A DNA stretch of 38,849 bases. Source: a virus. The notes under the pieces were generated by a model that ran no database searches, was not told the DNA's origin, and saw only the letters and a list, made by a program, of their open reading frames with translations. Below, piece by piece: positions 24,068 to 26,745 of this stretch. Positions within the stretch are counted from its first letter, which is position 1; the number at the start of each line of letters is the position of its first letter. The position numbers and the translations under genes are program-made. Location: IMG/VR virus record IMGVR_UViG_3300043436_001429, positions 1 to 38,849 of that record; one strand, written 5' to 3'.

Positions 24068-24418
24068 ATGACAGATTGGACGGCTCTACGTGAGGCGATT
24101 CTTGCACGTTGCCAAAACTACTGTGAGTTGTGCGGTAACGCACTTACAGACACGTTTGCACTACATCATCGCAAACTAAAATCACGCGGCGGTAAAGACA
24201 CGATAGATAATTTAGTTGCGTTACATCACGCTTGCCACAATATGGGTAATAACGCCGTGCATTTAAATGTGCAAAAAGCCACCGCAAGTGGTCATATGGT
24301 GCCAACATACGCCACGCCGTCTGCCTATCCATTACTTTTGCCTAACGGTTCTATTGTTACACTTAGCGAGGAAGGCACATACATTTACTTAGACAAGGCG
24401 GACAAAAATGGCTGGTGA
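24068..24418 (+). CDS. HNH nuclease
   Basis: A 116-residue HNH protein: Cys pair in NYCELCGNAL, then FALHHRKLKSRGGKDTIDNL and LVALHHACHNMGN, which is the classic H-H-R...D-x-x-x-N-L-V...C-H order. It resembles the small HNH proteins found in many phages and prophages near replication or terminase genes; whether it cuts host DNA, aids packaging, or resolves DNA is not clear. The C-terminus (PLLLPNGSIVTLSEEGTYIY) is beta-rich. AAAGGACAG leader (24056-24064). Overlaps ssb by 11 bases. Confidence 0.85.
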   Translation: MTDWTALREAILARCQNYCELCGNALTDTFALHHRKLKSRGGKDTIDNLVALHHACHNMGNNAVHLNVQKATASGHMVPTYATPSAYPLLLPNGSIVTLSEEGTYIYLDKADKNGW

Positions 24419-24985: not shown

Positions 24986-24995
24986 CTGTGGCTCG

Positions 24996-25035
24996 GAGAG
25001 AGTGCAAGCGCCTGTCCCGCCTGCACTCTCTCTTT
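24996..25035 (+). terminator. Intrinsic terminator after the ssb operon
   Basis: GAGAGAGTGCA (24996-25006) pairs perfectly with TGCACTCTCTC (25022-25032), 15-base loop, then TTTAAATTT. It separates the replication genes from the ParB/ABC-GNAT pair. Confidence 0.85.
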
Positions 25036-25055: not shown

Positions 25056-25598
25056 ATGGAAAAGTTAGTAGTAGAAACCATTTCAATTGATGATTTGGCG
25101 TTAGACCCGAATAACGCACGTAAGCACAGCGAAAAAAATATTAACGCAATTTGCGAATCATTAACGCAATTTGGGCAACGTAAGCCAATTGTTATAAATG
25201 CAGATGATGTTGTTATTGCAGGCAACGGCACAGTAGAAGCGGCGCGCAAACTTGGTATTAAAACGTTAGAAATTGTGCGCGTGCCTGCCAATTGGTCAGA
25301 GGAAAAAATAAAGGCGTACGCGCTCGCGGACAATCGCACGGCTGAATTAGCAAGTTGGGACGCGGAAATATTACTATCGCAACTTAATGAGTTAAATATT
25401 GCCGATTGGGACATTAACGCACTTGGATTTAAAGAGTTTGAACTAAATCCGCCTAAAGATTCTGACGCTGATACTGATATGAAAAGCATAGGCGAACGTT
25501 ATGAAGTTGTTATTGAGTGCGAAGATGAAAACGAACAAACGGCACTACTTATCCGCTTATCGCAAGACGGCTTAAAAGTCAGAGCAATCATCATCTAA
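25056..25598 (+). CDS. ParB-like nuclease-domain protein
   Basis: A 180-residue protein. Residues 1-115 are a ParB/sulfiredoxin-like domain: LALDPNNARKHSEKNINAIC, SLTQFGQRKPIVIN, then VVIAGNGTVEAARKLG where G-N-G-T replaces the more common G-H-x-R, and IKAYALADNRTAELASWD. The C-terminal 40 residues (GERYEVVIECEDENEQTALL) are the small domain that often follows ParB in phage DNA-modification proteins. It stands alone without a plasmid-type ParA, and no methyltransferase domain is fused. It lies 13 bases upstream of the ABC-GNAT gene, which suggests shared work on phage DNA. It may bind nucleotides or DNA. Confidence 0.85.
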   Translation: MEKLVVETISIDDLALDPNNARKHSEKNINAICESLTQFGQRKPIVINADDVVIAGNGTVEAARKLGIKTLEIVRVPANWSEEKIKAYALADNRTAELASWDAEILLSQLNELNIADWDINALGFKEFELNPPKDSDADTDMKSIGERYEVVIECEDENEQTALLIRLSQDGLKVRAIII

Positions 25599-25611
25599 CG
25601 AAAGGCACAAA

Positions 25612-26745
25612 ATGGGCAAAGTAATTCGCCTTGAAAGCACAATTACGCGCACGGCACGTGTAATGCAACTTGAAGGCTTGTTTGATATGGATTCGGAAAA
25701 GAATTCTGTTACAGAAATTGAAATGAATATTCCTGATTTAAGCACACGCGATTGGAACATTGGACTTATTGTTGGGCCATCAGGCGCTGGCAAAAGCACA
25801 ATTGCGCGTGAAATGTTTCCCGAAAAGTTACGCGACACGGAAAATATGATTTGGTCAGACGATAAGGCAATTATTGACGATTTTCCTATGGATATGCCAA
25901 TGCGTGAAGTAACGCAATTACTGTCATCTGTTGGCTTTAGTTCGCCACGTGCGTGGTTGCGCCCATATAAGGCACTCAGTAACGGCGAACAGTTTCGTGT
26001 AACGATTGCGCGTGTGCTTGCCGAAAATAATGATTTATCTGTTGTAGATGAATTTACTTCCGTTATTGACCGCACAGTTGCGCAGATTGGCTCACACGCC
26101 ATAGCCAATACTGTGCGTAAGCGCGGACAAAAGTTTGTTGCTGTGGGTTGCCATTACGACATACAGGAATGGTTACAGCCCGATTGGATTTACGAGCCAC
26201 ATACTGGCAAATTCACTTGGGGGTCGGTTCAACCCCGACCACAAGTGGAACTTGAAATCATATGGGCAAAGTATGAATCGTGGCACACGTTCGCACGTCA
26301 TCACTATTTAGACGCCAATTTAAACAAGGCGGCATATGTATATGTGGGGTTAATTAAGGGACAGCCTGCCTGTTTAGCGGCTGTACTGCCAATGCCAAAT
26401 GCACACGTTAGAAATGCGCGGCGGTTTAGCCGTAACGTAGTGTTACCTGACTTTCAAGGCATTGGGTTAGGCAAATACTTTCTAGATGTTATTGGCGCTG
26501 GCTTAGTCGCTCAGGGACTAGCGGTTTATGCTACTGCCAGCCACCCTGCACAAGTACATAATTTTAATAAATCGCCAAATTGGGAAATGATTCGTATGCC
26601 GTCAAGAGTTGCCAAACAAGGCAAAACAAGTTCATTATCTACACGTATGGGCGTAAGTAGAGCGCGTGTTACAAGTTCGTTCCGATTTAGAGGCGAACCT
26701 GATTATGAACTCGCCAAGATATTAGCGCCACTTCCCAAAAAATAA
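25612..26745 (+). CDS. ABC-type ATPase fused to a GNAT domain (Mom-like candidate)
   Basis: A 377-residue fusion. The first 205 residues form an ABC ATPase: Walker A GPSGAGKST (55-63), signature LSNGEQ (122-127), Walker B LSVVDEF with E147, and switch H181 in GCHYDIQEWL. It lacks membrane parts, so it is a soluble ATPase. Residues 210-377 form an acetyltransferase-type (GNAT) fold: ESWHTFARHHYLD, GLIKGQPACLAAVLPM, then RNVVLPDFQGIGLGKYFLDV with the acyl-CoA loop FQGIGLG (281-287), and ATASHPAQVHNFNKSPNWEM. Mu Mom, which modifies adenine in phage DNA, also has a GNAT fold, so together with the ParB neighbour a DNA-modifying role is the best idea. Not proven. Confidence 0.8.
   Translation: MGKVIRLESTITRTARVMQLEGLFDMDSEKNSVTEIEMNIPDLSTRDWNIGLIVGPSGAGKSTIAREMFPEKLRDTENMIWSDDKAIIDDFPMDMPMREVTQLLSSVGFSSPRAWLRPYKALSNGEQFRVTIARVLAENNDLSVVDEFTSVIDRTVAQIGSHAIANTVRKRGQKFVAVGCHYDIQEWLQPDWIYEPHTGKFTWGSVQPRPQVELEIIWAKYESWHTFARHHYLDANLNKAAYVYVGLIKGQPACLAAVLPMPNAHVRNARRFSRNVVLPDFQGIGLGKYFLDVIGAGLVAQGLAVYATASHPAQVHNFNKSPNWEMIRMPSRVAKQGKTSSLSTRMGVSRARVTSSFRFRGEPDYELAKILAPLPKK

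Follow-up and report, generated by a model that had tools for sequence, protein, structure and literature searches.

A phage ParB-like protein and ABC ATPase-GNAT fusion as a candidate DNA-base acylation system

Background

Mom, a phage enzyme of the GNAT superfamily known from phage Mu, modifies DNA at adenine N6, and other phage modification enzymes are found fused to ParB-like domains, as in the ParB-DNA methyltransferase fusions of phrog_498. The described systems closest to the locus analysed here are those in which a GNAT is coupled to an ABC ATPase: in the passages of Iyer et al. 2021 that treat them (PMC7824862), the authors recall that they had found such GNATs earlier (NAR 2013) and had predicted that they carry out an acylation, as yet uncharacterised, of a base in DNA, and they give examples from phages such as pT24, together with the protein QAX98348.1. 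Both examples are homologues of the fusion protein studied in the present work (pT24, 34% identity over 98%, 2e-61; QAX98348.1 of Aeromonas AsFcp_2, a tblastn match with 35% identity), and the core idea, acylation of DNA by an ABC-coupled GNAT, is therefore not new.

Results

Organization of the locus

The window, i.e. the whole stretch of DNA that was analysed, is a tailed-phage record of 38.8 kb (38,849 nucleotides) with tape measure, Dit, RecT, exonuclease, SSB, RusA, terminase and portal genes. The pair of interest consists of a ParB/Srx-type gene and, after a gap of 13 nucleotides, a gene for an ABC ATPase-GNAT fusion (Table 1), and the terminase genes lie ~1 kb downstream of it. Upstream of the pair, an HNH endonuclease gene (24068-24418) is found between the RusA and SSB genes. 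The two reading frames, and all of the motifs that a first-pass annotation of this DNA had named in them, proved exact. That annotation had also placed the pair in its own transcription unit behind a terminator, for which the evidence is divided: a strong hairpin does precede the ParB gene, with UUUAAAUUU after it, but this hairpin is not listed by a consensus terminator scan of the window and a promoter scan found no credible promoter, so that an independent transcription unit can be called plausible. In agreement with the annotation, a scan of window proteins, which covered the small reading frames in part, turned up no methyltransferase. A nucleotide search with the window region against phage records gave no match. 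PADLOC reported neither a defence system nor a full-length defence-protein match for the pair; its partial matches are to the ATPase motifs (mad3, 2.8e-10, ~50 residues) and, on the ParB part, to a type II methyltransferase model.

Table 1. Features of the ParB/ABC-GNAT locus in window coordinates.
Feature	Position	Strand	Evidence
RNA hairpin, strong, likely intrinsic terminator (weak T-run)	24995..25033	+	Fold -26.4 kcal/mol, z -3.2; between upstream HTH gene and ParB gene
ParB/Srx-like protein, 180 aa, probable DNA-binding/targeting subunit	25056..25598	+	phrog_620 1.8e-40; phrog_498 (ParB-DNA methyltransferase) 3.5e-36
ParB C-terminal tail RYEVVIECEDENEQTALLIRLSQDGLKVRAIII, residues 148-180, putative conserved adaptor element	25497..25595	+	Consensus in 208 distinct tails
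Whole ABC-GNAT fusion, 377 aa, phrog_11143	25612..26745	+	PHROG 6.2e-106 over residues 5-363
ABC ATPase domain, residues 1-204 of fusion	25612..26223	+	Pfam ABC_tran 4.6e-10; Walker A, signature, Walker B Glu, H-loop
GNAT acyltransferase domain, residues 205-377 of fusion	26224..26742	+	HHY helix motif 230-232; QGxGxG CoA loop 282-287; AlphaFold2 pLDDT 87.9

The ABC-GNAT fusion and its family

The fusion carries GPSGAGKST (55-63), LSNGEQ (122-127), VVDEF (144-148), H181 and FQGIGLG (281-287). Across 54 homologues G55, G58, G60, K61, S123, G125, D146, E147, H181 and G283 are invariant and G285 and G287 nearly so, and to judge from these residues the N-terminal half is an ABC ATPase with the full set of hydrolysis motifs (Walker A, signature, Walker B glutamate, H-loop). 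The family, annotated in phrog_11143 as of unknown function, is widespread and diverse: a tblastn search matched 81 phage records, 47 of them at full length and none above 60% identity, with Gordonia, Leptospira, Porphyromonas, Pasteurella, Aeromonas and others represented, and the fusion is encoded in at least 595 viral contigs and at least 451 bacterial genome contigs. The window element is a plain member of this large family, whose role has already been predicted. A whole-fusion AlphaFold2 model (pLDDT 90.9) retrieved ABC transporters and one full-length relative, that of Leptospira LE4, and nothing else.

In Lactococcus, Streptococcus, Oenococcus and Thomasclavelia phages the ABC and GNAT domains are encoded by separate adjacent genes; in the Streptococcus phage MismyG an ASCH-domain gene (L033:6093-6461) directly follows such a split pair. 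Matches to the fusion also occur in 907 plasmid records, and among the matches listed nearly all cover the ABC half only. In phage-plasmids of the SSU5 type, such as Salmonella phage SSU5 (L452:2318-5738), genes for two ParBs, for an ABC ATPase that stands alone and for a 296-aa protein weakly matching GNAT lie in one row.

The GNAT half, taken alone, gives only a weak Pfam score (0.06), while homologues reach PF00583 at 1e-9; its AlphaFold2 model is nonetheless a full GNAT fold. The nearest solved structures are the N-acetyltransferase RimI and those of the Naa50 type (Z 13-14, ~12% identity), and Naa10 and TmcA are also among the Foldseek matches. The first-pass annotation had linked this domain to Mom by fold and had named a profile and structure comparison as the check; that comparison came out for the peptide N-acetyltransferases. 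The window GNAT does not match the Pfam Mom family (PF25680) up to E 10, the best relative scores 15.3 bits against a gathering cut-off of 27.1 bits, profile comparison of the GNAT half with Mom gives a probability of 1.5%, and the Mom structure 8bv8 is absent among the fold-search matches listed, which are RimI/Naa50-like. On the model, the GNAT half would therefore be an ordinary RimI/Naa50-like GNAT and not a Mom. Since its closest relatives are protein N-alpha-acetyltransferases and neither sequence nor profile places it with Mom, a protein target is possible.

The ParB-like partner and its tail

The window ParB matches ParB_N (PF02195) below the gathering cut-off (0.003, 18 bits; cut-off 26.3), and the arginine box (G-x-x-R) of ParB CTPases and nucleases is degenerate in it (AGNGTVEAARKLG, with the arginine replaced), unlike in the ParBs of two related loci (L020 and L026), which retain GHGR. 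Whereas 457 of 50,697 phage records have a detectable relative of this ParB, a ParB-like gene on the same strand is the commonest neighbour of the ABC-GNAT, being present in 128 of 145 dereplicated loci and usually overlapping the ABC-GNAT start by ~20 nt. Other phage relatives of the window ParB are often annotated as a DNA methyltransferase or modification methylase, or adjoin one.

The ParBs next to the ABC-GNAT have a conserved C-terminal tail of ~34 residues, with the consensus [YF]xV[IV]V(E)C-x-[DS]E-xxQ-xx-L-...-G-xxCR. Mu-like phages lack the ParB domain and retain a tail-only gene of ~50 residues, which ends at the ABC-GNAT start; this stand-alone tail corresponds to phrog_28816 (6e-24), which the window tail matches at 0.0011. 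Among 296 loci a full ParB is found in 214, the tail alone in 36, neither in 36 and a contig edge in 10, and in some phages, such as jumbo phages, the module lacks a ParB or the ParB is located elsewhere. Because ParB and ABC-GNAT co-occur, and because the tail persists alone in Mu-like phages, the tail is best read as an adaptor for the ATPase-GNAT, and the ParB would then be more than a bystander neighbour. That the tail might be common to all phage ParBs was considered and rejected: in methyltransferase-linked homologues the alignment mostly stops at about residue 110-158. The ParB of Microbacterium phage Pickles13 (L336:2469-3621), which lies directly upstream of, and overlaps, a Mom-like gene, has no adaptor tail, and that of Microbacterium phage Jefe, although it aligns to residue 178, has a C-terminus without the tail signature. 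The Jefe ParB gene is followed by genes annotated as glycosyltransferase and UDP-glucose dehydrogenase, and this stretch (L337:2974-5369) is possibly another ParB-linked DNA modification locus.

Exchange with mom

A Mom homologue is the rightmost gene of the P. gingivalis phage015a, and the equivalent slot in its sister phage008a holds the tail, the ABC-GNAT and a formyltransferase-fold gene. Up to the base that precedes Mom, the flanks of the two phages share 93% and 86% identity, and their final 94 bp share 83%. This occupation of one slot by Mom and by the ABC-GNAT cassette is the strongest single sign that they have a common function.

Donor and tailoring genes in relatives

The window copy is the plain version, with no donor or accessory genes, and the term “hypermodification”, used in the first-pass annotation, goes beyond the evidence for it. 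Relatives, in contrast, belong to larger operons. In Rhodococcus phage Jace the ABC-GNAT is immediately followed by PanD (aspartate decarboxylase, 2e-33) and a short CoA-transferase of class III. When the CoA-transferase was searched back, an ABC-GNAT lay just upstream in 27 of 28 loci, with PanD as well in 23; the 28th locus begins inside the cassette, and 4-nt gene overlaps are common in these loci, some of which are on near-identical contigs and thus represent fewer than 28 independent cases. Viral PanD was found at 38 loci, and all 22 of those that include an ABC-GNAT also include the CoA-transferase, so the possibility that PanD is a mere metabolic gene was set aside. The remaining 16 contigs (L423-L427, L429-L430, L437-L439, L446-L451), which have neither ABC-GNAT nor CoA-transferase nearby, look unrelated and may reflect either a different role of PanD or flanking host DNA. 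A PanZ-like role of the GNAT, in which it would activate PanD, was also rejected, as most ABC-GNATs occur without PanD. The catalytic motifs of PanD are intact, namely the Gly-Ser of the cleavage site and the Lys, Thr-Tyr and Asn. In some operons (L280:878-4138, also L281, L283-L285 and L287) two ABC-GNAT copies flank PanD and the CoA-transferase.

In a second branch a Formyl_trans_N gene (phrog_9240) takes the place of PanD and the CoA-transferase. It adjoins an ABC-GNAT in 74 of 76 new loci from a back-search, and the other two begin at contig edges. Gordonia phage NHagos has this formyltransferase-fold version, while Leptospira biflexa phage LE4 and Lactococcus P335 have the plain one. Of the usual N-H-D triad of formyltransferases, the protein keeps the His and Asp and lacks the Asn, and because of this loss “formyltransferase” is used here as the name of a fold, the chemistry being uncertain. 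A literature search for reports connecting these donor genes (PanD, CoA-transferase, formyltransferase-fold) with phage DNA modification found none.

Residues that vary with the donor cassette

Among 172 representative GNATs, N307 and Y318 (positions are those of the window fusion) occur together in 19 of the 20 linked to PanD and the CoA-transferase and in none of the 152 others, and an Asp or Glu is present at 291 in 18 of the 20 as against 1 of the 152. The sole PanD-linked GNAT without N307/Y318 (L151) lies in a locus whose PanD frame is short and whose CoA-transferase frame is split. The GNAT half, which has 44% of the columns, contains 28 of the 30 most discriminating ones. On the basis of GNAT fold topology, positions 291, 307 and 318 would flank the CoA loop and beta-5/alpha-4, a putative acyl-binding pocket, and an acidic residue beside the acyl site would suit a free-amine donor such as beta-alanyl-CoA. 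Counted on supported branches, the PanD-linked label has at least 3-5 changes; with just three strongly supported, fully independent pairs, the test of pocket/cassette covariation (p 0.25) is unable to reach significance. In the two-copy operons the second ABC-GNAT copy differs at positions 291 and 318. The specificity positions of the window copy are hydrophobic (L291, A307, A309, F318), and this, together with the absence of donor genes, makes a host acyl-CoA, probably acetyl-CoA, the simplest donor for it.

Discussion

The best explanation of the ParB/ABC-GNAT pair is probably that it is a phage-encoded DNA-base acylation system. DNA modification is favoured because the ParB partner is constant, because the cassette exchanges with mom in one slot, and because operons of the family contain donor and tailoring genes, with a putative pocket signature in the PanD-linked GNATs. 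The earlier claim that the pair alters phage DNA is partly supported on these grounds, as well as by the published prediction for the family and by the methyltransferase-linked relatives of the ParB. In the mechanism proposed here, the ParB-like protein would bind DNA and its C-terminal tail, as co-occurrence and the tail-only genes of Mu-like phages suggest, would recruit the ATPase; ATP-driven closure of the ABC dimer, for which the intact ATPase motifs speak, would position or license the GNAT on DNA; and the GNAT would move an acyl group from acyl-CoA to an exocyclic base amine, adenine N6 or cytosine N4 being the simplest candidates. The plain version in the window would probably draw on a host donor such as acetyl-CoA, whereas some relatives would make their own, with PanD supplying beta-alanine and the CoA-transferase activating it, and in others the product would be tailored by the formyltransferase-fold enzyme. 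The expected outcome is virion DNA that resists host nucleases.

The principal competitor to DNA acylation, though an unlikely one, is a protein acetyltransferase for host takeover, in which the GNAT acetylates a host protein, the ABC domain is a regulator, and the ParB serves for targeting or is a bystander. Rac of phiKMV acetylates RNA polymerase, so such an activity has a precedent, and RimI, Naa50 and Naa10, the closest solved folds, all act on peptides. GNATs of jumbo phages have been proposed to act like Rac (PMC7824862). An enzyme of this kind that used acetyl-CoA would not be expected to have a near-constant ParB, to occupy the mom slot or to be linked to a PanD/CoA-transferase operon.

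Acylation of tRNA or another RNA, as in the ac4C reaction of TmcA, which might evade tRNA-cutting defences, is decidedly improbable: TmcA is among the structural matches, and ASCH-domain genes, whose fold is linked to acetylcytidine metabolism, lie downstream in three loci, but ParB proteins act on DNA, Mom, with which the cassette is swapped, is a DNA enzyme, and the neighbours of the module are terminase and recombination genes, with no RNA-processing family recurring in the downstream tally. Least probable of all is a role in DNA segregation or packaging, in which the ParB together with a soluble, condensin-like ABC ATPase would organize DNA or pass it to the adjoining terminase with the GNAT as an accessory. 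Roles in chromosome organization are known for ABC ATPases as well as for ParB, and a large terminase gene follows in 72 of the 145 dereplicated loci; yet coiled coil and hinge are absent, the GNAT is kept even where ABC and GNAT are split genes, and in Mu-like phages, such as the Pseudomonas phage Komp_PAO1_1, the module comes behind the tail genes, at a distance from the terminase.

If base acylation is accepted, a bolder and more doubtful extension is that the family makes a set of undescribed aminoacylated bases, the PanD branch proceeding from aspartate through beta-alanine to beta-alanyl-CoA, from which the ATP-gated GNAT would load the base (+71.04 Da expected), the formyltransferase branch capping a free amine of the added group, and the window copy being a basal acetyl-type member. 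Through these relatives the 2013 prediction becomes directly testable, since they specify mass shifts to be sought in phages already cultured, and a phage gene pair that is very common yet unexplained gains a likely role and a candidate ParB-enzyme adaptor. If true, bulky acylated bases would be an added class of phage counter-defence and possible tools for DNA marking.

The ABC-coupled GNAT systems of Iyer et al. and phrog_11143 have the same domain pair as the window fusion and are homologous to it over its whole length; the parts of the 2021 text that were compared (PMC7824862) make no mention of the ParB tail adaptor, of partners of the PanD/CoA-transferase or formyltransferase-fold kind, or of the mom-slot swap. 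Mu Mom (PF25680, PDB 8bv8) resembles the window GNAT in being a phage-borne member of the GNAT superfamily, in the slot that its homologue occupies in sister P. gingivalis phages and, by eye, in an HY motif in the first helix, but it has no ABC domain, QGxGxG loop or ParB tail and no significant profile match. The RimI/Naa50 N-alpha-acetyltransferases, for all their closeness in fold, are distant in sequence and without an ABC or ParB partner. The phage ParB-DNA methyltransferase fusions of phrog_498 share a close ParB domain with the window protein and combine, as the window pair would, a modification enzyme with a ParB reader; their partner, unlike that of the window, is a methyltransferase, and the similarity ends before the C-terminal tail.
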